Assembly: GCA_023443045.1 (NCBI GenBank)
Contig: JAEZWK010000032.1
Coordinates: 1 to 9,446 of the forward strand
Direction: 5' to 3'
DNA length: 9,446 nt
Source: Bacillota bacterium
GTDB taxonomy: Bacteria > Bacillota_A > Clostridia > Tissierellales > Peptoniphilaceae
Part shown: positions 297-9,446 of the stretch, one piece after another
Numbering within the stretch: the stretch's first letter is position 1
Layout: every line of letters starts with the position of its first letter
Notes under the pieces: generated by a model
Database searches by the model: none
What the model saw: only the letters and a program-made list of their open reading frames with translations
Told to the model about the DNA's origin: nothing
Position numbers and translations under genes: made by a program

Positions 297-336
297 AAAA
301 ATGCTATGCTGCATAAAATAAAGGCATAGCATTTTT
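297..336. terminator. Bidirectional Rho-independent terminator between the PTS gene and hsdS
   Basis: TGCTATGC at 302-309 pairs perfectly with GCATAGCA at 324-331. The stem extends through A297-301 and T332-336 to 13 base pairs, around a 14-nt loop. A-rich sequence on the left and T-rich sequence on the right give a U-tract for transcripts from either side, as expected between convergent genes. The rest of the 204-373 gap is AT-rich; I see no gene in it. Confidence 0.85.
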
Positions 337-365: not shown

Positions 366-386
366 GTCGTTTTTTATTTAAACGAC
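366..386 (-). other. Small inverted repeat spanning the hsdS stop codon
   Basis: GTCGTTT at 366-372 and AAACGAC at 380-386 can form a 7-bp stem, with the hsdS TAA (376-374) in the loop. The sequence beyond it on the minus strand is not T-rich, so by itself it is a poor terminator. The 297-336 hairpin probably ends the hsdS transcript; this one may be a 3'-end structure. Confidence 0.4.
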
Positions 387-2119
387 AATAATATATCCCT
401 GTAGTACTCATATTGTTTCGTGCGCATTTCTATCTCTGCGGGGAGTCCTGCGTTTAGGTCATTACATAGCGCATAAAATTTATCAAGTATCGATACAATT
501 CTTTTTTGTTCTTGGATAGGTGGAACAGATATTTTGGATTTGCTTATATTATCGTTATAAAGTCTTGCAATCGTTCCACCTGTCGATGCATTCCACGGCT
601 GTAGTTGATAATAGTAATATAAATAGCGATTCAACACGATGCTCTCATCGTTAGCTATCCAGACAATATTAGAGTCCTGATAATAGGCATCTTTACCGTC
701 AAAGACAACTGTTCTTCCAATTGTTCCCGATGCTGAAATAAGAATGTCACCTTTGTTTGGATAAGAATATGTCGCTTTATATTCCTCGAATTTCTCTCTG
801 GATATATAAGCATCTGGTTGCTTTCCAAATGTACCAATTTTAAAAAATGGAACATCTCCAACTGTACTAGTTTCGGATTTCATAATGCGTTTGCACATAG
901 AAACTTTTCCAATATCACCCAATAATATTTCCGCTTTACCAAACACATATTGAATAAGCCTAATTATATTCTGTCTGTCTATCTGTCTAACGTTTATGTT
1001 GCCAGTTGCAGTATATGTCAACAGTGCATCACGATAGTACTCATATTGTTTTTGTCTTGCTTCCATATCAGCAGGCAAAATAATATTTAAATTAGAACAG
1101 ATTGACTCAAAATTATCTAAAACTTCCACAAGACGATTTTGAAGATCAAGAGATGGTAATGGAATTTCGATATTTTCAATTGATTCTCTAGAAATTCTCG
1201 GTATGCTTGCTTTACGAACTTTCGAATTAATTAATGACTGATTATTAAGTAGTACATAGAAGAGGAATTTTTGAGTTATCTTTTCATTACATTCAAACGT
1301 GTAACAATCATCAGCTGCCCAAAAATCATTCTCACTAAATCCAATAGACCCAGCAGCTCCTGCACCAATTAAATACACACTTCCACCATTTCTATTCTTG
1401 GAATTGTAATAACCCATTGGAGAAAGAGCATTCTGATATACCGCATATTCTCCATTTTCACTCAAATCACTTTTTACTAATCGTTTTCCACGCGATATAT
1501 CAGCCACATCTTTAATACGAATTCTATCAATTGTACATTCAAAAGTTAGTAGGTAATCTCTATAGTATTCATATTGTTTTTTGCGTAAATCTAATTCTTT
1601 TTTTAATTTATCATTTAATTCCTTTGTTAGGTCTGTGAATTTGTCGAGGATGTTTACTATACGCTCTTGTATTTCGAGTGGCGGGAGGGGGATGAGTATA
1701 TTTTTTATCATAGGAATTGTTAGTTGTGGTATTCCCGTAATAGGTACATTATACTTTTTATCTTGTAAACAATAATAAAGATATTTACAGTTAAGTTCAT
1801 TTTTATCATATGGAATAATTGATAGAAGACGTACAACAGGATAATATGAATAATCTCTATATTCAGCATAACCAATTGTTCCTCTTGCTGAAATAGTTAC
1901 AGCAGTTTCAGTTATTTTAGGTATATCGGTATACCCATATAATGCTTTTTCACCCACTCCATTACTTATGATAGGCACTGTAAAGTTTTCAGTTTTAGTA
2001 ACGGAATAATTTTCTTTTGGAATGTCTCCACCCGATGTTATTATACATATCTCACCTAATTCTTTATACTCCACGCCGTCGGGGCACATTTCTCTTACCA
2101 ACTCATCTATTTTATTCAT
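374..2119 (-). CDS. hsdS: Type I restriction-modification specificity subunit with three target-recognition domains
   Basis: HsdS chooses the DNA target of a type I restriction-modification enzyme and docks onto the HsdM methylase. The start MNKIDELVREMCPDGVEY matches common HsdS N-termini and has GAGGA five bases upstream, so I chose the ATG at 2119 over in-frame ATGs at 2125 and 2134. From that start the protein has 581 residues; ordinary HsdS proteins have about 380-450. I see three TRD-plus-helix units. TRD1 is at about 17-145, with its helix ending in KQYEYYRD at 181-188. TRD2 is at about 200-322, ending in KQYEYYRD at 357-364. TRD3 is at about 395-533, ending in KQYEYYRD at 568-575. Each helix begins with an IPLPPLEIQ-like or VPPIQEQ-like motif. 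Family members normally have two TRDs, so the third is unusual. No hsdM or hsdR lies in the window, so partners must be elsewhere or absent. The TRD2-TRD3 linker is coded by a tetranucleotide repeat (970-988). Confidence 0.92.
   Translation of the reverse strand: MNKIDELVREMCPDGVEYKELGEICIITSGGDIPKENYSVTKTENFTVPIISNGVGEKALYGYTDIPKITETAVTISARGTIGYAEYRDYSYYPVVRLLSIIPYDKNELNCKYLYYCLQDKKYNVPITGIPQLTIPMIKNILIPLPPLEIQERIVNILDKFTDLTKELNDKLKKELDLRKKQYEYYRDYLLTFECTIDRIRIKDVADISRGKRLVKSDLSENGEYAVYQNALSPMGYYNSKNRNGGSVYLIGAGAAGSIGFSENDFWAADDCYTFECNEKITQKFLFYVLLNNQSLINSKVRKASIPRISRESIENIEIPLPSLDLQNRLVEVLDNFESICSNLNIILPADMEARQKQYEYYRDALLTYTATGNINVRQIDRQNIIRLIQYVFGKAEILLGDIGKVSMCKRIMKSETSTVGDVPFFKIGTFGKQPDAYISREKFEEYKATYSYPNKGDILISASGTIGRTVVFDGKDAYYQDSNIVWIANDESIVLNRYLYYYYQLQPWNASTGGTIARLYNDNISKSKISVPPIQEQKRIVSILDKFYALCNDLNAGLPAEIEMRTKQYEYYRDILLSFK
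402..418 (-). repeat. hsdS internal repeat, copy 3 (end of TRD3 helix)
   Basis: A 17-base segment, tagtactcatattgttt on the plus strand, codes for KQYEYY near the end of the third conserved helix. It is identical to the copy at 1035-1051 and differs by one base from the copy at 1563-1579. Such repeats can support in-frame recombination that swaps or deletes a TRD. Confidence 0.85.
970..988 (-). repeat. Imperfect tetranucleotide repeat in the hsdS TRD2-TRD3 linker
   Basis: On the plus strand the tract reads TCTG TCTG TCTA TCTG TCT, which is 4.75 units with one substitution at 981. On the coding strand it is an AGAC-type repeat encoding RQIDRQ. The gene reads through in the present frame. Removing one unit gives ATA-TAA, with the stop at 966-964. 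Adding one unit gives a TAG stop at 962-960. Either change would end the protein at about residue 383-387, just after TRD2. The longest uninterrupted part is only 2.75 units, so high-frequency slippage is not assured. Confidence 0.75.
1035..1051 (-). repeat. hsdS internal repeat, copy 2 (end of TRD2 helix)
   Basis: This segment is identical over 17 bases to 402-418, 633 bases away, an exact multiple of three. Recombination between the two would remove 211 codons in frame and leave a two-TRD gene. Confidence 0.85.
1563..1579 (-). repeat. hsdS internal repeat, copy 1 (end of TRD1 helix)
   Basis: This segment matches copies 2 and 3 in 16 of 17 bases. It lies 528 bases (176 codons) from copy 2, so an exchange between them would also keep the reading frame. 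Confidence 0.8.
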
Positions 2120-2129
2120 TCTCATCCTC
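2120..2129 (-). promoter_or_regulatory. Ribosome binding site deciding the hsdS start
   Basis: On the minus strand GAGGA (2129-2125) sits five bases before the ATG at 2119. The more upstream in-frame ATG at 2134 would lie almost at the predicted transcription start and has no Shine-Dalgarno sequence. Confidence 0.75.
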
Positions 2130-2143
2130 AACATTTTTTCTTT

Positions 2144-2172
2144 ATTATAACAAATTAAAATAAAAAAAGCAC
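2144..2172 (-). promoter_or_regulatory. Probable hsdS promoter with extended -10
   Basis: On the minus strand TGTTATAAT (2152-2144) is a perfect extended -10 element. Transcription should start near 2137, giving a short leader of about 18 bases before the ATG at 2119. The -35 region has no good match (TGCTTT or GTGCTT) and falls inside the terminator stem of the upstream gene. Confidence 0.65.
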
Positions 2173-2184
2173 CCGCAGGCGCTT
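2155..2184 (-). terminator. Rho-independent terminator of the 250-residue membrane protein gene
   Basis: On the minus strand AAGCGCC pairs with GGTGCTT around a TGCG loop (7 bp with one G-U pair; plus-strand arms 2167-2173 and 2178-2184). A long run of T follows. The stop codon TAA (2185-2183) overlaps the base of the stem. Confidence 0.88.
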
Positions 2185-2935
2185 ATCTTTCATCAATTGT
2201 CATCTCAAAATCATCATCTCTTAAATTTGTATATTCGAACATATAGTTTTTATTTTCCATCTCATATTTATAAACTATATTTCCATTTTTATAATTATAT
2301 ATGATCGTTCTTGTGTTTCCTTTTAATTCCATAAGATCATGCTTTTCTATATATGAGTCCAGCTTTTTCGCCCCCACAAACATTCTATATGGAATATCAA
2401 AAATTATACTAGATATCATAAATATTATTATGCTGTAGACTATACAGGAGTATATTTTCTTATCTTGCTTTAGTGCCCAAATGCAGAATGTGGAGATTAT
2501 AATTATGGATAGCATTAGTAATAATAACGAATAATTTATACTTCCATCAGCATATATGGCTCTTATGTTAAAAATAATTAGTGCCACAGCTACTATATCC
2601 ACAAACAAAAATAGTGATATAAATAGGCTTTTTATAATAGAATTATCCACCCTAAATACATAGTGACAGATCATAAATATTAAAGCTAGCGCTATTATGG
2701 GCACAAGTATTAGATAAGGACTTATATAATATATCAAATAGATTGGAGAGATTATTTCACCGATATGATAATTCAAAAAATAATTTATATTATAGCTAAT
2801 ACTTATCACAATAAATATGGCAAGTGATATGTGAATTCCTCTTTGTGTAAATGGAATTTTTTTGTATCTGGTTATTATATATCCCAAAAGCGCAGAAAAT
2901 AATAATATTAATAGCTCAGTTATTATATATATCAT
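2183..2935 (-). CDS. Unrecognised polytopic membrane protein with C-terminal soluble tail
   Basis: The start is the ATG at 2935, preceded by AAGGAGGG with four bases between; the frame stays open further upstream, but no comparable site exists there. This gives 250 residues. I see about six hydrophobic segments, at roughly 2-23, 34-53, 60-92, 102-124, 134-155 and 160-184. A hydrophilic tail of about 65 residues follows, rich in Lys, Asp, Glu, Asn and Tyr (for example NYKNGNIVYKYEMENKNYMF), likely a small beta-rich domain. I recognise no enzyme motif or transporter signature. The gene has its own promoter and terminator and lies between the Trk operon and hsdS, so context gives little clue to its role. 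Residue use is strongly Ile-rich, in line with the AT-rich genome. Confidence 0.8.
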   Translation of the reverse strand: MIYIITELLILLFSALLGYIITRYKKIPFTQRGIHISLAIFIVISISYNINYFLNYHIGEIISPIYLIYYISPYLILVPIIALALIFMICHYVFRVDNSIIKSLFISLFLFVDIVAVALIIFNIRAIYADGSINYSLLLLMLSIIIISTFCIWALKQDKKIYSCIVYSIIIFMISSIIFDIPYRMFVGAKKLDSYIEKHDLMELKGNTRTIIYNYKNGNIVYKYEMENKNYMFEYTNLRDDDFEMTIDER

Positions 2936-2947
2936 TTTTCCCTCCTT
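2936..2947 (-). promoter_or_regulatory. Strong ribosome binding site fixing the membrane protein start
   Basis: On the minus strand AAGGAGGG (2947-2940) precedes the ATG at 2935. It lies inside the longer open frame, which excludes the 16 extra codons upstream. Confidence 0.85.
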
Positions 2948-2971
2948 TATTTTATAGATATCTATAATATT

Positions 2972-3000
2972 ATTATAACACATTAAAGTTTTTTTGGAAG
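2972..3000 (-). promoter_or_regulatory. Probable promoter with extended -10 for the membrane protein gene
   Basis: On the minus strand TGTTATAAT (2980-2972) is an extended -10 element identical to that of hsdS. The -35 region around 2994-2999 reads TTCCAA, matching the consensus in three of six positions. The predicted leader is about 30 bases. Confidence 0.6.
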
Positions 3001-3028
3001 TATAAAAAAATAATTAATATTTAATATT

Positions 3029-3055
3029 TAATAAAAAAAGAGCGTGAAAGCTCTT
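3029..3055 (-). terminator. Rho-independent terminator of the Trk operon
   Basis: On the minus strand AAGAGC and GCTCTT form a 6-bp stem around TTTCAC (plus-strand arms 3038-3043 and 3050-3055), followed by seven T. The trkH stop codon (3056-3054) overlaps the stem. Beyond it, 3000-3030 is only AT-rich sequence with short TAATATTT repeats. Confidence 0.85.
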
Positions 3056-4511
3056 AATTTCTATATTTTATTTTTTTTATGTTATTAATCGCACTGGAGG
3101 ATGCGATGATTATGGTAAATATTTCCAATCTTCCAAGTATCATGGCAAATATTTCTATTATTAATGTTATCATATCTGTATTTGGATTTGTGATTCCTAT
3201 AGATAATCCAACTGTAGAAAGTGATGAAGATATTTCAAACATGGCGCTTGTGAGATTTGTTTTGGCGCTTATGGTTAGTAGTAGAGATAGTACCATGAAT
3301 ATGAGTAGATACACTAGAAAAAATCCAAATGTATTTTCTTTTAGTTCATCATCTATTTTTGTTTTGCCCTTGACTGTGATGTAGTAATCTGTAGCTATTT
3401 GTCTTTTGGGGCTTATTTGTTTTTTTATATTTATTATCATCATTTTTAGGAGTAGGTATGCACGTGTGAGTTTGAGTCCGCCCGCGGTTGATCCTATTCC
3501 GCCACCAATTATCATGAGTATTATCATTAGTCCAAGTGAAAATTCTGACCAATCAGAAAAGCTGATTGTGGAGTATCCTGTAGTAGAGATTGCTGATCCT
3601 ACGTTGATTAATGATTCGTACATTGCATTTATTATCGGGAGTTTGTTGTGAATGCTTAGCGATATTCCTATTATTATCACAGATATTATAAGTAGCGCTC
3701 CCAAAAATTTCATTTCACTTACTTTGAATGCTTTTTTTATTTTTCCTTTTATGAGACAGAGTAGTACTGCAAAGTTGGTAGTTCCTATTATCATCAGTAC
3801 AAATGTTACTAATCTTATTCCTACGCTATTATATTCTCCGATGCTATTTAGTCTTGTGGAAAATCCTCCGGTAGATAATGAGCACATGGAATGGCATATG
3901 CTTTCAAAGAGATTCATACCAAATATTGTATATAATGCACTTCCGATTCCCAAAAATAATAGATACATAAAAAAGATGATTCTGGCGGTCTTTTTTAGGT
4001 GTGGCAGTAATCTGTCTGAGTGCGCCTCTCTTTGGTATAATTCCATTGATTGTTTATTTGTAGAGATGAGTAGCATCATCATGATAAATCCTAATCCACC
4101 CACATATTGCATAAATGATCTGTAGAATAGAATTATTTTAGGTGCTGTAGTTACATCGACAACGGAAAGGCCTGTTGTAGTAAATCCGCTTACCGCTTCA
4201 AATATTGCTTGAACTGGATTTAGCATTCCCGATATTATAAATGGTAGTGCCCCGATGATGGAGCCGTAAACCCAAGCAAATATTACTTTGTATGAGGTTT
4301 CATTTAGGACTTCTATTCTATTTGATTTTAATTCGTTATTATCTCTAAAGAAAAGATTTAATAAAATTCCTAGAAGTATGGATGTGATAGATGGTATAAA
4401 AAATGGATAAAAATATTCATACTCCTGATAGATGGGTAATATAATTAGGCTTAATCCCACTATTACGCCTACAGATATCATCACATTTCCAAAATATGAT
4501 CTAAATTTCAT
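3054..4511 (-). CDS. trkH: Potassium uptake channel subunit, TrkH/KtrB family
   Basis: The 485-residue integral membrane protein has the four-fold membrane-pore-membrane plan of the TrkH/TrkG/KtrB superfamily. Four selectivity-filter loops are visible: TTTG at 111-114, STGG at 213-216, STTG at 309-312 and STVG at 432-435. The intramembrane gating loop with GGGIGSTAGGLK is at about 336-347, and the family motif GRLEIFTI is near the C-terminus. It moves K+ (in many relatives with Na+ or H+) across the cell membrane under control of cytoplasmic RCK proteins, which are encoded directly upstream. I prefer the ATG at 4511, which has AAGGTGAG four bases ahead; a GTG at 4520 lies within that binding site. 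The gene overlaps the end of the preceding RCK gene by 11 bases, which suggests translational coupling. All filter glycines are present and the length is normal for the family. Confidence 0.95.
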   Translation of the reverse strand: MKFRSYFGNVMISVGVIVGLSLIILPIYQEYEYFYPFFIPSITSILLGILLNLFFRDNNELKSNRIEVLNETSYKVIFAWVYGSIIGALPFIISGMLNPVQAIFEAVSGFTTTGLSVVDVTTAPKIILFYRSFMQYVGGLGFIMMMLLISTNKQSMELYQREAHSDRLLPHLKKTARIIFFMYLLFLGIGSALYTIFGMNLFESICHSMCSLSTGGFSTRLNSIGEYNSVGIRLVTFVLMIIGTTNFAVLLCLIKGKIKKAFKVSEMKFLGALLIISVIIIGISLSIHNKLPIINAMYESLINVGSAISTTGYSTISFSDWSEFSLGLMIILMIIGGGIGSTAGGLKLTRAYLLLKMMIINIKKQISPKRQIATDYYITVKGKTKIDDELKENTFGFFLVYLLIFMVLSLLLTISAKTNLTSAMFEISSSLSTVGLSIGITNPNTDMITLIIEIFAMILGRLEIFTIIIASSSAINNIKKIKYRN

Positions 4512-5175
4512 AATTCTCACCTTTTAGAGTTTTTATGAGTTCGAATTTGTTTTTGTTTTTTGCTAATACTAGCAGTATATCTTTGGATAATATTTCTGTA
4601 TCACCTTTAGCAACGATTGTTTTATCTCCTCTTAGCACGCAGATGATTATAGCGTCTTCTGGGAATTTTATTTCTGCAATTTTTTTGTTGCAGGCTGCAT
4701 CATTTGTTTCTATTAAAATTTCTGTCACTTCTAGCGCACCCTCTCTTATGGGCACTGAGTGAGTTATGGTATCTAGTAGCGCCTCTTGTTTTATAAACTC
4801 TGATACCTGTCTTACTGCGCATATAACTTTATCCACTCCCATTCTATGAAAAAAATCTACCTTTCTTACATCGTTTAAGAGTGAAATAGCTCTAGTTACT
4901 TTAAATTTTTTCTTAGCGAGTTCGCATACCAAAAGATTATCTTCGTCATTTGATAAAAGTGATATTACTATATCCATTTCATGAGTGTTTGCATCTTCTA
5001 GTACATATGGTTTTGTGCCATCTCCCAAGAATACTTTTATTTTTTTATTTTCGCTTAAAAATTGTGCATCATCAGGATTTTTATTGATAATTGTCACATC
5101 ATAATTGTTTTCATAAAGGCTTTCTGCTAAAGTTTTTGCTTTATTTCTTCCGCCTACTATTAATATTTTTTTCAT
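4501..5175 (-). CDS. TrkA/KtrA-type RCK regulatory subunit, two-domain, with altered nucleotide loop
   Basis: This 224-residue cytoplasmic protein has an RCK-N Rossmann domain (about 1-125, with the conserved GDGT at 51-54) and an RCK-C domain (about 140-215). Proteins of this kind form a ring under the TrkH/KtrB channel and gate it in response to bound nucleotides. RCK-C domains of some relatives bind cyclic di-AMP; nothing visible here proves or excludes that. The glycine-rich loop is unusual: it reads VGGRNKAKTLA where relatives have a GxGxxG pattern, so a residue and the last glycine appear lost. The acidic residue ending the second strand is Asn (IINKNP rather than IIDKDP). Classical NAD(H) binding may therefore be weakened. 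It follows the RCK-N-only gene by nine bases, with its GAGG site overlapping that gene's stop codon, and it overlaps trkH. Confidence 0.9.
   Translation of the reverse strand: MKKILIVGGRNKAKTLAESLYENNYDVTIINKNPDDAQFLSENKKIKVFLGDGTKPYVLEDANTHEMDIVISLLSNDEDNLLVCELAKKKFKVTRAISLLNDVRKVDFFHRMGVDKVICAVRQVSEFIKQEALLDTITHSVPIREGALEVTEILIETNDAACNKKIAEIKFPEDAIIICVLRGDKTIVAKGDTEILSKDILLVLAKNKNKFELIKTLKGENYEI
4512..4523 (-). promoter_or_regulatory. Ribosome binding site deciding the trkH start
   Basis: On the minus strand AAGGTGAG (4523-4516) precedes the ATG at 4511 by four bases. It lies within the 3' coding part of the upstream RCK gene. Confidence 0.7.
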
Positions 5176-5184
5176 AACTTCCTC

Positions 5185-5601
5185 TTATATTAGTTCTTCG
5201 ATTTTTTTACTTGCAAGTTGTGTAGGGCATATCGTCTGTATACCAAGCTCCTCATAGACGCATGATCTATCTATATCATAGATTCTACACACAATATTTT
5301 TTACATGATACATATCTTTTAATAACTGCGATACCATGATATTTGTATTATCTTTATTTGTTACAATGATAAATACATCATCCGGCGATATTTTTAGCTC
5401 ATCATATATATCTAAATCGAGTGCATCACCTTCTATGATCTCTCCGCCAAAGGATAGTGACAATTTTCTAAAAGCATCAGAGTCTTTATCGATTATAGTT
5501 ACATCTAGCCCCTTATCATACATCATATTTGCTATGTGAGCGCCAAGCCTTCCGCATCCCACAACAATTATATTTTTTACTTCACTACTATTTCTAAACA
5601 T
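5185..5601 (-). CDS. TrkA-type RCK-N-only regulatory subunit
   Basis: This 138-residue protein consists of a single RCK-N Rossmann domain. It has an intact glycine motif VVGCGRLG (13-20), the acidic residue after strand two (IIDKD, 36-40) and EGDA (57-60) in place of the usual GDG/GDS. There is no RCK-C domain: the protein ends normally at TAA, and the next gene starts nine bases on in another frame, so this looks like a genuine short subunit and not a truncation. A two-subunit gating plate of this kind, one short and one long RCK protein, has been described for Thermotoga maritima TM1088A/TM1088B. By analogy the two products here probably assemble together on TrkH. It is the first gene of the operon, with GGAG five bases before the ATG. 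Confidence 0.9.
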   Translation of the reverse strand: MFRNSSEVKNIIVVGCGRLGAHIANMMYDKGLDVTIIDKDSDAFRKLSLSFGGEIIEGDALDLDIYDELKISPDDVFIIVTNKDNTNIMVSQLLKDMYHVKNIVCRIYDIDRSCVYEELGIQTICPTQLASKKIEELI

Positions 5602-5633
5602 ATTTTCTCCATATTTATTTATTTTAAAAACAT

Positions 5634-5662
5634 ATTATACTCCTATTTTTTTAAAATATCTA
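5634..5662 (-). promoter_or_regulatory. Probable promoter of the Trk operon
   Basis: On the minus strand TAGATA (5662-5657) is followed after 17 bases by a perfect TATAAT (5639-5634). The leader is about 25 bases, too short for a riboswitch such as the cyclic di-AMP type that controls some potassium transporters. Confidence 0.7.
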
Positions 5663-5696
5663 TATAAAATAAAAAACTCTCCCCGAGGGAAGAGTT
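5661..5696 (-). terminator. Rho-independent terminator of the thioredoxin/small membrane protein unit
   Basis: On the minus strand AACTCTTCC pairs with GGGAGAGTT (9 bp with one G-U pair; plus-strand arms 5675-5683 and 5688-5696) around a 4-nt loop, followed by a T-run. The stop codon TAA (5697-5695) overlaps the stem. Confidence 0.88.
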
Positions 5697-6030
5697 AAAT
5701 ATCTAAATTTTCTAAATGATCAATCTCTGAAATTTCATATCCATCTAACCCCAAAGCAGTTTTTTCTTCAGGGCTAAAATATCTGGAAAACTTTCCAAAT
5801 TGATTTTTATAGTAATTTAGTTTTTCATATTCTAGCGTACTTTCTTTAAATAAAAGTTCAGCTTTTTCAAGTTCTTTTTTTAAGATCATAGCATTGTCAA
5901 AATTTATATCATGTTTTAGATTTGTGTATGATTTATACATTTCATCTAAATAAATTTTGACGGTTATCCTTTCATGTATTCTAGAATATATTAATAAACC
6001 AAATGCTATAATCGCAATGATCCATAACAT
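5695..6030 (-). CDS. Small membrane-anchored protein sharing a C-terminal module with its neighbour
   Basis: The 111-residue protein has one N-terminal hydrophobic segment (about 2-16), then a basic stretch (SRIHER, with a Lys following). A predicted helical, charged region (about 28-70) and a C-terminal part containing FSPEEKTALGL (85-95) follow. Residues 43-95 resemble the C-terminus of the preceding gene product: N-x-[DE]-NA-x2-LK near the start, ES-x(2-4)-EK in the middle and F[ST]PE[EQ]KT-x-LG at the end. Its ATG shares one base with the preceding stop (TAATG) and no good ribosome binding site is visible, so translation is probably coupled. I do not recognise a named family. The basic residues after the single helix would favour a cytoplasmic C-terminus, which is odd for a partner of a secreted protein; a secreted-side orientation remains possible. 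Confidence 0.8.
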   Translation of the reverse strand: MLWIIAIIAFGLLIYSRIHERITVKIYLDEMYKSYTNLKHDINFDNAMILKKELEKAELLFKESTLEYEKLNYYKNQFGKFSRYFSPEEKTALGLDGYEISEIDHLENLDI

Positions 6031-7247
6031 TATTGAGCTTCAGCAATTCCTAATTCAGTTTTTTGTTCTGGTGTAAAATCTTTGGTTAATCCGACTAATT
6101 GTTTTAATAAGTAAAATTTTTCTCCGCCTATAACTGATTCGTGTACCCAGCCTTCTTCTCCTAAATCTTTTAATCCATCAATAGCCGCTTTAAGAGCTTT
6201 TGCATTTTCCATATTTACTTCTTTCTTCAATTTTTCTAAAAGTTCATATGCTTTTTCAATTTTTTCTCTTTCAGCTTTGATTTCAGCTATTTCACCATTT
6301 TTAGCTTTTTCTACTAATTGTACCCATGAATAGTTTTCGCCGTTTGAATATTTTAGCACTACATTTCCTTCTTTATCCATAACGAAGATGGTTGGGAAAT
6401 ATACACTGTCGTCGCCTGTAAGTGTCTTGATATACTCGATCATTGCCTCATCCATAGCAAAGTATTTGTAGTTTTCTGGATATTCAGCTAATTCAAATTT
6501 TGAGTGAGCCATTTTGTCATCATATCTCTTGTAATCATAGATTAGAGAAATAACTTGTGAGTTGTTGTCAGCTTTTAAAAACTCATTTAAGTGAGCTTTT
6601 TCAAGTCCGCACCATCCGCACCATGGAGCCCATGCAAATAGAATTGTGTAATCTTTTTTAGCGTATAATTCTTTTAAGCCTTCAACTGTTGTTGTTTCAT
6701 AAACAGTTTTTGTAGGATAGATGATAAATTCATTATCTTTAAGATCTGTGTAATAAATTTCTCCCAATCCTTTTCTTAGAGAACCTAATTGGATGTAATA
6801 TTCTTTATCAATGATTAGTGCATCCCAAGGTTTTTCAACTTTTTCACCATTTAATGATAATGCTAATTCAACTTTTGTGTACTTAGTTGTAGCTTCTTTA
6901 GCTACATTGTCAGTATCTTTTTTAGCATAGTCTTTTCCAATAACTAAATCAAGTGTTTTATTTTTGTTATCCCATGCTATATCAAATTTAGCATCTGTAC
7001 CAGCTAATAATGCTGCCATATCTCTTAAACGAATGTAATAACTAGAATATGCTTCTTCATAGTCATCATCCCACTGAATTAAGTTATAGATATTAGCTAC
7101 TTTTTCTTCGCCATTCATCATAACTTTTAGATCAGCTTTTTCTAATTGTGGAAAATCTTCTTTCTTTAGCTCTTCTGCATTTACCATTGGCGCAAATAAA
7201 CTAAACGCCATAAATAGAGCTAAAATTGTGCATAAAAATTTTTTCAT
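6030..7247 (-). CDS. Secreted thioredoxin-fold protein with copper amine oxidase N-like region
   Basis: The 405-residue protein begins with a Sec signal peptide (1-24, probable cleavage VNA|EE) and has no lipobox, so it should be exported. Residues 38-104 and 126-178 look like two half-repeats of the 'copper amine oxidase N-terminal-like' wall or stalk region common in clostridial exported proteins (NGEEKV...YYIRLRDMAALLAG; LNGEKVEK...YYIQLGSLRKGLG). A thioredoxin-like domain follows at about 186-315, with active-site motif WCGWC (209-213) and a probable cis-proline in YFPTIF (P285). The name of the first region does not imply copper oxidase activity. The TlpA-like fold suggests extracytoplasmic thiol-disulfide chemistry. 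A charged helix (317-345) leads to a terminal module (346-401) that recurs in the next gene product. AGGAGG lies five bases before the ATG. The only other cysteine, C6, is in the signal peptide. Confidence 0.88.
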   Translation of the reverse strand: MKKFLCTILALFMAFSLFAPMVNAEELKKEDFPQLEKADLKVMMNGEEKVANIYNLIQWDDDYEEAYSSYYIRLRDMAALLAGTDAKFDIAWDNKNKTLDLVIGKDYAKKDTDNVAKEATTKYTKVELALSLNGEKVEKPWDALIIDKEYYIQLGSLRKGLGEIYYTDLKDNEFIIYPTKTVYETTTVEGLKELYAKKDYTILFAWAPWCGWCGLEKAHLNEFLKADNNSQVISLIYDYKRYDDKMAHSKFELAEYPENYKYFAMDEAMIEYIKTLTGDDSVYFPTIFVMDKEGNVVLKYSNGENYSWVQLVEKAKNGEIAEIKAEREKIEKAYELLEKLKKEVNMENAKALKAAIDGLKDLGEEGWVHESVIGGEKFYLLKQLVGLTKDFTPEQKTELGIAEAQ

Positions 7248-7278
7248 ATGCTCCTCCTAATTTTTTTTCATTACAATA

Positions 7279-7307
7279 ATTATATCACTTTATTTAATTA
7301 ATTACAA
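7279..7307 (-). promoter_or_regulatory. Promoter of the secreted thioredoxin-like gene
   Basis: On the minus strand TTGTAA (7307-7302, four of six matches) is followed after 17 bases by TATAAT (7284-7279), extended to TGATATAAT. The leader is about 25 bases and ends in AGGAGG. The -35 element lies right after the clpB terminator. Confidence 0.8.
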
Positions 7308-7334
7308 ATAAAAAGAGAGAATTAATCTCTCTTT
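7302..7334 (-). terminator. Rho-independent terminator of clpB
   Basis: On the minus strand AAAGAGAGA and TCTCTCTTT form a perfect 9-bp stem (plus-strand arms 7312-7320 and 7326-7334) around TTAAT, followed by TT-rich sequence. The clpB stop codon (7324-7322) lies in the loop. G+C in the stem is modest, so termination may be incomplete. Confidence 0.75.
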
Positions 7335-9446
7335 AAAATCATATTTCCATCCACCACATCTACGAGTACATTATCTCCGTCAGAAATACTTCCTTTTAAT
7401 ATATCTTTAGCTAGTATATTTTCTACATTGCTCATGAGGAATCTTTTTACAGGTCTTGCTCCAAAACTTTCGTCATATGAATTTTCTAGCACAAAATCTC
7501 TTGCTTTTTGACTTAGTTTTAGTGTTATATTTTTCTCTTTTAGCACCTCGTTTAAAGAATTTATCAAAAGATCTATAATCTGATTTAGATTTTCTTTATT
7601 TAGCGGTCTAAACATAATTATTTCATCTATTCTATTTAAAAATTCAGGTCTAAATGCAAGTTTTAACTCTTCGTCGACTTCATTTCTTGCCTCATCAGTA
7701 ATGAGCCCATCTTTTATTCCATCAAATATATATCTACTTCCTATATTCGATGTCATAATAATTACAGTATTAGAAAAATCTACAACTCTACCCTGATTAT
7801 CAGTTAGTCTTCCGTCATCTAGGACTTGCAAAAGCACATTAAATACATCCGGATGAGCTTTTTCTATTTCATCTAAAAGAACTACACTATATGGCTTTCT
7901 TCTTACCGCTTCTGTTAGCTGGCCACCCTCTTCATATCCTACATATCCCGGGGGAGCTCCTATAAGTCTAGATACTGAAAATTTTTCCATATATTCACTC
8001 ATATCTATTCTTATCATATTTTTATCATCATCAAAGAGTGTTTTTGTAATTTCTTTAGTTAGATGAGTTTTACCAACTCCTGTGGGACCCAAGAATAAAA
8101 ATGATCCAATGGGACGATTTTTCCCTGAAAGCCCCGCTCTATTTCTCTGTATCGCACCAACAATTTTTTCTATCGCCTCATCCTGACCGATTACAGTTTT
8201 CATAAGATGCTGATCTAGCTCCAAAAGTTTTTCCCTATCACTTTGATTTAGTTTAGAAACTGGTATGCCCGTCCACTGGTTAACCACTTTTGCTATTTCA
8301 TCCTCAGTTACTTCCATATTCAAAATCTTATCTTCTTTTTCATTTTCAGTTAGATATTTTAATTCTTCTTCCAATTTGGGTAAAGTACCAAACTTAAGTT
8401 CACTCAAATGCTCTAGATTATATTCTCTTTCGGCTTTTTCTATTTCCAATTTTACATTATCTATTTTTTCTTTTACTTCTTTTATCTTTTCGAGTTCTGA
8501 TTTTTCTTCTTCCCATCTCTCTTTTAAAACCTGATATTTTTTCTTCTCTTCTGATAATTCTCCTTCTAAAATCTCAAGCCTTTTTTTAGAATTCTGATCA
8601 GTCTCTTTTTTAAGAGCCTCGCGCTCAATTTCTAGCTGCAATATTTTTCTTTCCATCTCATCTATTTCTATAGGTGAAGAATCTATCTGAGTTCTAACCA
8701 TAGCAGATGCTTCATCCATAAGGTCAATCGCCTTATCTGGTAAAAATCTATCTGTGATATATCTGTTGGATAGAGTAGCTGCTGCTATAACCGCGCTATC
8801 AGAAATTCTAATTCCGTGGTGAAGCTCATATTTATCCTTTATACCTCTAAGAATTGAAATGGTATCCATAACTGTGGGTTCTGTAACCAAAACTTTTTGG
8901 AAACGTCTTTCTAGTGCAGGATCTTTTTCTATATATTTTTTATATTCGTCTAAAGTAGTAGCACCAATCGCGTGCAAAACACCTCTAGCAAGTAATGGTT
9001 TTAGAAGATTACCCGCATCCATAGCTCCGCTTGTTCTTCCGGCACCTACTATTGTGTGTATCTCGTCGATAAACATTATTATCCTGCCTTCAGATTTTTC
9101 TACTTCCTCTAAAACTGATTTTAATCTCTCCTCAAACTCACCCTGATATTTTGCACCAGCTATCAATGCACCCATATCCAAGCTAAAAATTGTTTTATTT
9201 TTAAGTCCGTCTGGCACATCATTTTTTACTATCCTCTGAGCCAAACCTTCTACTATGGCAGTTTTACCTACACCAGGCTCCCCGATTAAAACCGGATTAT
9301 TTTTGGTTCTTCTAGATAAAATACGTATACAATCACGAATTTCCTCATCTCTACCAATTACCGGATCTACCTTGCCATTTTTTGCCTCTTCTACCAAATC
9401 TCTACCAAATCTAGTAAGCACGCTGTAATTGGATTCGGGATTATTG
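7322..9446 (-). CDS. clpB: ClpB-type AAA+ disaggregase, N-terminal domain cut off by window edge (partial)
   Basis: The frame is open to the right edge: codons upstream of the GTG at 9421 read NNPESNYS, the usual linker before the first ATPase domain, so that GTG is not the start. The visible 707 residues contain, in order: AAA+ domain 1 with Walker A GEPGVGKT (55-62), a pore loop KYQG (99-102) and Walker B ending FIDE (about 125-128); a full-length charged coiled-coil M-domain (about 263-383); and AAA+ domain 2 with Walker A GPTGVGKT (453-460), pore loop GYVG (500-503), Walker B VVLLDE (521-526) and MTSN (564-567). The long M-domain and lack of a ClpP-binding loop motif fit ClpB rather than ClpA/ClpC. 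ClpB threads aggregated proteins through its hexameric pore, working with DnaK/DnaJ/GrpE in the cytoplasm. Promoter and N-domain are outside the window, so heat-shock control cannot be judged. All catalytic motifs are intact. Confidence 0.96.

Follow-up and report, generated by a model that had tools for sequence, protein, structure and literature searches.

An interrupted AGAC tract in a three-domain hsdS gene of a Bacillota bacterium, and a likely family of slippage switches at the same domain junction

A three-domain hsdS gene with a repeat in its linker

We analysed a 9446-nt stretch of DNA from a Bacillota bacterium of the Peptoniphilaceae (contig JAEZWK010000032.1 of assembly GCA_023443045.1), which is called the window throughout. 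Its minus strand carries an hsdS gene, encoding a Type I specificity subunit with three target recognition domains (TRDs), and a short interrupted AGAC tract lies in the linker between TRD2 and TRD3 (Table 1). Comparison with relatives makes it likely that this tract is homologous to slippage tracts and that the family of genes with repeats at this junction switches between a two-TRD and a three-TRD form. This assessment does not extend to the effect of the third TRD.

The gene was recognized by three Methylase_S (PF01420) stretches in its protein (E 2.3e-88) and by a match to Specificity_I of PADLOC (E 2.2e-141). The database copy of the protein (P0001) was 581 residues long in the protein search. 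The protein contains the two TRDs and two conserved regions (CRs) of a complete HsdS fold. In the AlphaFold2 model, helix 384-398 precedes TRD3 as helix 2-16 precedes TRD1. A GLPAE-type motif was present in 46 of the 54 aligned CR2 regions, in 46 of the 54 CR3 regions and in none of the 54 CR1 regions.

Table 1. Positions in the window of hsdS, its domains, the repeat tract and neighbouring signals.
Feature	Position	Strand	Description and basis
hsdS, three-TRD Type I specificity subunit	374..2134	minus	Open reading frame of 586 residues from M1; 581 residues from M6 at 2119
TRD1, residues 25-150	1685..2062	minus	AlphaFold2 model and alignment; borders approximate, set by the authors
CR1, residues 151-199	1538..1684	minus	Single long central helix; AlphaFold2 model helix 153-196
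TRD2, residues 200-326	1157..1537	minus	AlphaFold2 model and alignment
CR2, residues 327-374	1013..1156	minus	C-terminal-type conserved region; GLPAE-type motif; helix broken there in the three-TRD model
Interrupted AGAC tract, 4.75 units	970..988	minus	AGACAGATAGACAGACAGA on the minus strand; Tandem Repeats Finder; TRD2-TRD3 linker
Helix opening the third module, residues 384-398	941..985	minus	..NIIRLIQYVF; model helix; LxQYVFG head in relatives
TAA reached on loss of one pure-run unit	964..966	minus	In silico slip, 388 residues from M1
TAG reached on gain of one unit	960..962	minus	In silico slip, 392 residues from M1
TRD3, residues 401-536	527..934	minus	PF01420 match, alignment and AlphaFold2 model; pN/pS 0.12-0.21 against five relatives
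CR3, residues 537-586	377..526	minus	C-terminal-type conserved region; GLPAE-type motif
Possible extended -10 promoter element	2144..2152	minus	TGTTATAAT; inferred by reading the sequence, not from the scan that gave the hairpin at 2167..2184
Terminator-like hairpin after the upstream gene	2167..2184	minus	Hairpin scan
Hairpin with T-run downstream of hsdS	297..336	minus	Fold; not in the scan that gave the hairpin at 2167..2184

The tract and the stop codons behind it

Tandem Repeats Finder called the tract with a period of 4, 4.8 copies, 86% matches and a score of 31, and its pure run covers 970-980 (11 nt, 2.75 units). As in simple sequence repeat (SSR) switches, the unit length is not divisible by 3, though only 2.75 units are pure, and a change of length yields two plausible products: in silico, 388 or 392 residues versus 586 in frame. 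Loss of a unit upstream of the interruption led to an earlier stop at the TAG within GATAG (383 residues from M1).

These results confirm the original prediction on these points, which had been made from the sequence of the window. It had proposed an AGAC-type repeat of 4.75 units with one interruption in the TRD2-TRD3 linker, on which Tandem Repeats Finder and the domain layout agree, and had placed a TAA at 966-964 after unit loss and a TAG at 962-960 after unit gain, as the slips in the pure run do. Its products of 383-387 residues equal ours of 388 and 392 once these are counted from M6 rather than M1. It had further stated that both shifted frames stop at once at the domain border and leave an HsdS of normal two-TRD size; stops in both shifted frames recur at all tested junctions, and natural truncated two-TRD forms exist in relatives (see below).

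The 3' flank of the tract matches the flank of an (ACAG)n junction in a related genome (L045) at 34 of the 36 positions, counted by eye. We therefore take the window tract as homologous to true slippage tracts.

The same junction in related genomes

To survey this junction with an anchor independent of the repeat, we used as query the LxQYVFG head on the 3' side of the tract. The anchor occurred at 48 places in 46 of the 297 genomes of one family and at 55 places in 53 of the 397 genomes of another, and all 103 places were inspected (102 in one batch, plus G001, which is L001). Of the 102 places, 23 were hsdS junctions, and 22 of these had a perfect repeat at the junction. The period was 4 in 20 of these tracts, 5 in L052 and 7 in L109, a heptanucleotide tract of four ACGAGCA units. 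Tract lengths ranged from 15 to 120 nt, where the minimum of 15 nt is that of a tract cut by a contig end. At the remaining junction (L128), a run of N inside the tract marks an assembly gap and is followed by ACAGACAGAC. With L001, which has 13 ACAG units, this gives 24 related junctions, 23 with a perfect tract of 4-, 5- or 7-bp units and one with an assembly gap inside the tract. No such repeat was found at any of the 79 anchor places outside hsdS junctions, nor was a second repeat of this kind found elsewhere in the 19 complete hsdS genes.

A contig end lies at or upstream of the tract in nine of the 23 survey junctions (L045, L067, L086, L089, L097, L098, L117, L118, L121). Together with the N run in L128, this suggests that assemblies break at junction repeats, which probably leaves genes of this kind under-reported.

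A further search, for (ACAG)5, matched 14 of 391 genomes. Going by the first listed locus of each genome, six of the matches fell at hsdS junctions, although for three of these a contig end left just one side to judge by, and eight fell elsewhere. The latter, (ACAG)n tracts of 23-94 nt outside hsdS (L012, L016, L017, L019, L020, L022, L023, L024), included several between short open frames, which could be intergenic. A second anchor, QWVFGP, was found at three places in 371 genomes. An IMG/VR contig of 56.8 kb (L170) carries an in-frame three-TRD hsdS with (GACA)9.5 at 1413-1462; no AGCAG-type tract was found in the viral scan, and Rfam gave no match.

Seven of the 18 complete junctions (window included) were in frame and 11 were shifted. 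Adding L009, L170, L171, L172 and L173 (in L173 only the 150 nt after the tract were read) gave 23 complete junctions, eight in frame and 15 shifted. The 8 of 23 in frame fits free slippage (expected one third; P = 1.0), although the ratio is rough: the loci came from several kinds of search, in some cases through the repeat itself, and a contig end interrupts nine of the 23 survey junctions. Both alternate frames stopped within the 14 codons tested in all 18 junctions, the farthest stop beginning 24 nt past the tract. By synonymous shuffling of these 14 codons, 7.4 of the 18 would be expected to do so, and elsewhere in the same genes the average was 43%.

With 15 of the 23 complete junctions shifted, one might regard the shifted copies as decaying pseudogenes rather than as an alternative state. 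We consider this highly improbable. TRD3 was open to its end in all 11 shifted genes, and shifted bodies identical to in-frame ones exist. For one TRD3 type (six loci, 15 pairs), pN/pS was 0.07-0.23 with shifted loci included and 0.23 for the shifted pair L004-L007, rough values given that pS was 0.44-0.88 and thus near saturation. We saw no anchor at which a repeat was combined with a broken TRD3, though our selection of junctions required an intact TRD3 end. The sequences thus indicate that TRD3 is kept under purifying selection.

Identical proteins with different linkers

The protein search yielded 7972 homologs, and the 120 matches listed were 529-635 residues long. For the comparison of linkers we used 284 proteins among the matches listed of three similarity-ranked searches, which do not form a census. 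A repeat-type linker peptide was found in 223 of the 227 three-TRD-length proteins with the CR2 motif: SRAEQ in 153, RERE in 23, STVQY in 16, NGTER in 15, TDRQ-like in 14 and NRTEQ in 2. The DNA unit behind these peptides was seen for the ACAG, AGCAG and GA types only.

Within the set of 155 three-TRD proteins whose linkers are of the SRAEQ or NGTER type, 154 pairs had at most three mismatches outside the linker and yet differed in linker length, whereas 41 such pairs were equal. The differences were solely 5, 10, 15, 20 or 25 residues (multiples of 15 nt). The 25 best pairs had zero mismatches across 577-595 residues, and their linker pieces of 3-33 residues differed in steps of 5.

Such steps between otherwise identical three-TRD proteins would also suit a repeat that tunes domain spacing in frame, without frame switching, like the TAEL/LEAT repeats; in-frame repeats altering HsdS specificity are described for NgoAV (LEAT) and Escherichia coli (TAEL) in an excerpt of PMC6789123. 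Spacing as the function of the repeat is quite unlikely, however, because it would favour units divisible by 3, of which none were seen, and because most loci (15 of 23) are frame-shifted and a stop follows early in each alternate frame. Spacing may instead be a side effect of the switch.

Natural truncated proteins were found with the same bodies as three-TRD proteins. P0128, P0129, P0131 and P0132 share the body of the three-TRD proteins P0121/P0122, P0125 that of P0003, and P0257 that of P0033/P0081. P0130 and P0133 also have the P0121 body, with other end residues (SLSLIHI, SRAPDADGLQ). Three further truncated proteins (P0127, P0258, P0259) had one mismatch to the nearest body, five (P0126, P0149, P0227, P0228, P0230) had 3-19 mismatches, and for P0135 there was no body of equal length. 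One Faecalibacterium prausnitzii body was represented by 91 rows at ≥98% identity, of which 88 were three-TRD proteins and three were truncated. The three truncated rows comprise 220 member sequences and the other rows 115, numbers that depend on how the clusters were formed. The 88 include P0256, a near-identical HsdS of the F. prausnitzii type in which the tract is gone and CR2 is fused in frame to the QYVFG head, a natural fixed three-TRD form.

Comparison thus shows that the tract lengths of this family differ between otherwise identical genes. Two of the three lengths stop translation just after TRD2-CR2, leaving a normal two-TRD HsdS, and the third yields a three-TRD protein, which consists of a two-TRD HsdS and an extra half (helix, TRD3 and a C-terminal-type CR). 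The proposed phase-variable origin is well supported by these relatives, through their varied units, both phases on identical bodies, dual stops and purifying selection on TRD3. For the family as a whole, a chance tract or a linker that matters only as protein was rejected on account of the differing units, the dual stops and the recurrent natural truncated forms; the window gene by itself would fit either of these readings.

State of the window copy

The pure repeat is 11 nt long in the window versus 15-120 nt in the 22 measured relatives. P0052 (557 residues) has the same interrupted linker as the window protein, in frame and with 25 of the 26 residues the same, as compared at the protein level. 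P0052 is a mosaic, with identities to the window protein of 92% in the head, 23% in TRD1, 94% in CR1, 89% in TRD2, 83% in CR2, 26% in TRD3 and 70% in CR3. Hence, TRD1 and TRD3 differ while the linker is unchanged and in frame. From these identities P0052 looks like another allele of the window hsdS, with TRD1 and TRD3 differing between conserved regions.

From the few pure units, the same linker in P0052 and the lack of hsdM and hsdR on the contig, we conclude that the window gene is probably an orphan with a relic tract, frozen in frame. The original prediction had likewise held that a pure run of 2.75 units weakens the case for present activity, to which the linker of P0052 adds. It had also suggested counting length variants: the tracts of relatives vary in length, and the linker of P0052 is the same as that of the window at the protein level. 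The pure run, both intact stops and a full open frame with a possible promoter would still allow the window tract to switch at a low rate, with both forms in present use. We regard this as unlikely, in view of the longer perfect repeats of the relatives, the in-frame linker of P0052 and the absence of a partner hsdM on the contig.

Several points weigh against a switch, in addition to the near-saturated pS mentioned above. The tract is short and interrupted, and its quality is within what chance gives: in dinucleotide shuffles of hsdS, period-4 tracts of at least this quality arose in 41 of 500, those of period 2, 4, 5 or 7 in 126 of 500, and an equally good tract inside a 69-nt piece in 31 of 3000. 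Taken alone, it is weak evidence. Its linker was found in only two of the 284 proteins, P0052 being the sole other one. Four of the 227 three-TRD proteins (P0215, P0222, P0231, P0256) have no repeat-like linker, and thus three TRDs do not need the repeat. The length differences are known between database genes, not within one strain, and the nominal P of 1.4e-8 for the dual stops treats related loci as independent, which they are not. Moreover, the window hsdS has no hsdM or hsdR on its contig. CR1, CR2 and CR3 of the window protein are about equally alike in pairwise comparison (26/51, 28/50 and 25/51 positions), so that CR2 and CR3 are set apart as one type solely by their GLPAE-type motif and by the helix break seen in the model. 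For the modelled three-TRD chain, the structure had a predicted template modelling score of 0.55, and its long alignments to HsdS entries had root-mean-square deviations of 20.8-28.8 Å; the model therefore says little about function, and no functional conclusion was drawn from it.

The chance frequencies of the tract and the conservation of its linker in P0052 would both suit a repeat that codes for a flexible linker and matters as protein only, its repetitive look in the window being coincidence. We find this very unlikely, since relatives use DNA periods of 2, 4, 5 and 7 at the same point, encoding unrelated peptides, place stops in both other frames and include natural truncated forms, and since the flank of the window tract can be aligned to genuine (ACAG)n junctions.

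Genomic setting

A tblastn search found no hsdM or hsdR in the window, but the contig is short and the partners may lie elsewhere. Orphan hsdS genes are described in PMC6241649. In relatives, hsdM precedes and hsdR follows hsdS in L001, L004, L007, L009 and 12 of 14 further loci. The contig of L154 begins at hsdS and gives no view of a preceding hsdM. In L156, hsdM, another open frame and a three-TRD hsdS are present, but no hsdR was found over the 8.7 kb that follow; this locus is perhaps a methylation-only system.

Judging by the flanking hairpins and the candidate promoter, the window hsdS may be a separate transcription unit. The neighbours at 2183-9446 encode a 266-residue protein weakly matching DUF3139, TrkH, two TrkA-type proteins, a 405-residue protein weakly matching AhpC-TSA, and a ClpB-like protein that the contig end truncates. 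In 150 genomes, the closest counterpart of the 405-residue protein was 32% identical.

We also considered switching by recombination, but found no second hsdS, recombinase or good inverted repeat. The scanned window proteins include a single HsdS and no recombinase, within the limits set by the contig ends, and the inverted repeats in the window are short and imperfect (17-21 nt, 76-88% complementary). A plasmid or phage origin was rejected as well: 1018 plasmid and eight phage records match, with 32-43% identity in the 25 plasmid rows listed and <60% in the eight phage rows, over ordinary HsdS length or less.

Comparison with known systems

Type I hsdS genes with SSRs were reportedly surveyed by Atack et al. 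2020 (FASEB J 34:1038, doi 10.1096/fj.201901536RR). The window gene resembles the SSR genes of that survey in having an in-gene repeat able to shift the frame, and differs from them in its short interrupted tract and in the lack of hsdM and hsdR on the contig. According to an excerpt of PMC7394358, 10% of Type I systems have simple sequence repeats. HsdS subunits encoding three TRDs are credited to Atack et al. 2020 by PMC12429846. Three-TRD hsdS is thus already reported, and the window gene is a further case of that gene type. Our literature search, covering titles and abstract openings of the papers listed, found nothing on a repeat junction between TRD2 and TRD3; Atack et al. 2020 was outside its coverage.

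The original prediction had drawn a parallel with NgoAV of Neisseria gonorrhoeae, in which the length of a tract determines whether HsdS is made in its longer or its truncated form, with a change in specificity (excerpts of PMC9577141 and PMC6789123). The parallel holds in that tract length alters the HsdS product, but not in the kind of switch. NgoAV has a polyG tract, with a 410-residue archetype and a 208-residue truncated form according to the same excerpts, and thus goes from two TRDs to one by a homopolymer. In contrast, the window tract has a period of 4 and lies after TRD2, and the junction family has units of 2-7 bp and alternates between a three-TRD and a normal two-TRD form.

Helicobacter pylori and Mycoplasma agalactiae also have three-TRD HsdS, but PMC3077401 attributes these genes (TRD1-TRD2-TRD2) to flanking repeats that recombine with each other, rather than to a microsatellite frame switch. 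Inverting hsdS loci resemble the proposed switch in altering Type I specificity at random. Such loci contain another hsdS along with inverted repeats, and in some cases a gene for a recombinase (excerpt of PMC7394358), none of which were found in the window.

A proposed switch between two and three domains

We propose that the window tract, though short and interrupted, belongs to a widespread family of slippage switches located between TRD2 and TRD3 in the Type I hsdS genes of bacteria that we assign to the Clostridia. Tract length would change by slipped-strand mispairing. Because the S subunit sets both methylation and restriction, the switch would alter the sites used by the HsdM-HsdS-HsdR enzyme. 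The extra half might compete with TRD2-CR2 for pairing with TRD1-CR1, or pair with another copy, and the in-frame state would thereby, as we think most likely, add or replace a specificity.

Tentatively, and as a possibility somewhat short of even, the two-/three-TRD frame switch may be a distinct and repeatedly evolved design of Clostridia. Unrelated microsatellites would have arisen at one junction, with frame-shifting units and stops in both other frames, with a complete HsdS as the default and an extra half-HsdS in about one third of the loci, and solitary frozen copies would store three-TRD proteins that lend TRDs or compete for HsdM.

The window copy matters mainly as an example of a worn switch. 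Truncated and three-TRD forms with identical bodies in public Faecalibacterium-type data suggest that natural pairs may exist. Type I enzymes are the textbook two-domain readers of DNA, and if a third reader is commonly added by a switch, one has to ask how HsdS uses three TRDs. If the design is indeed a distinct one, the extra half-HsdS would give these systems a third, unstudied specificity state.
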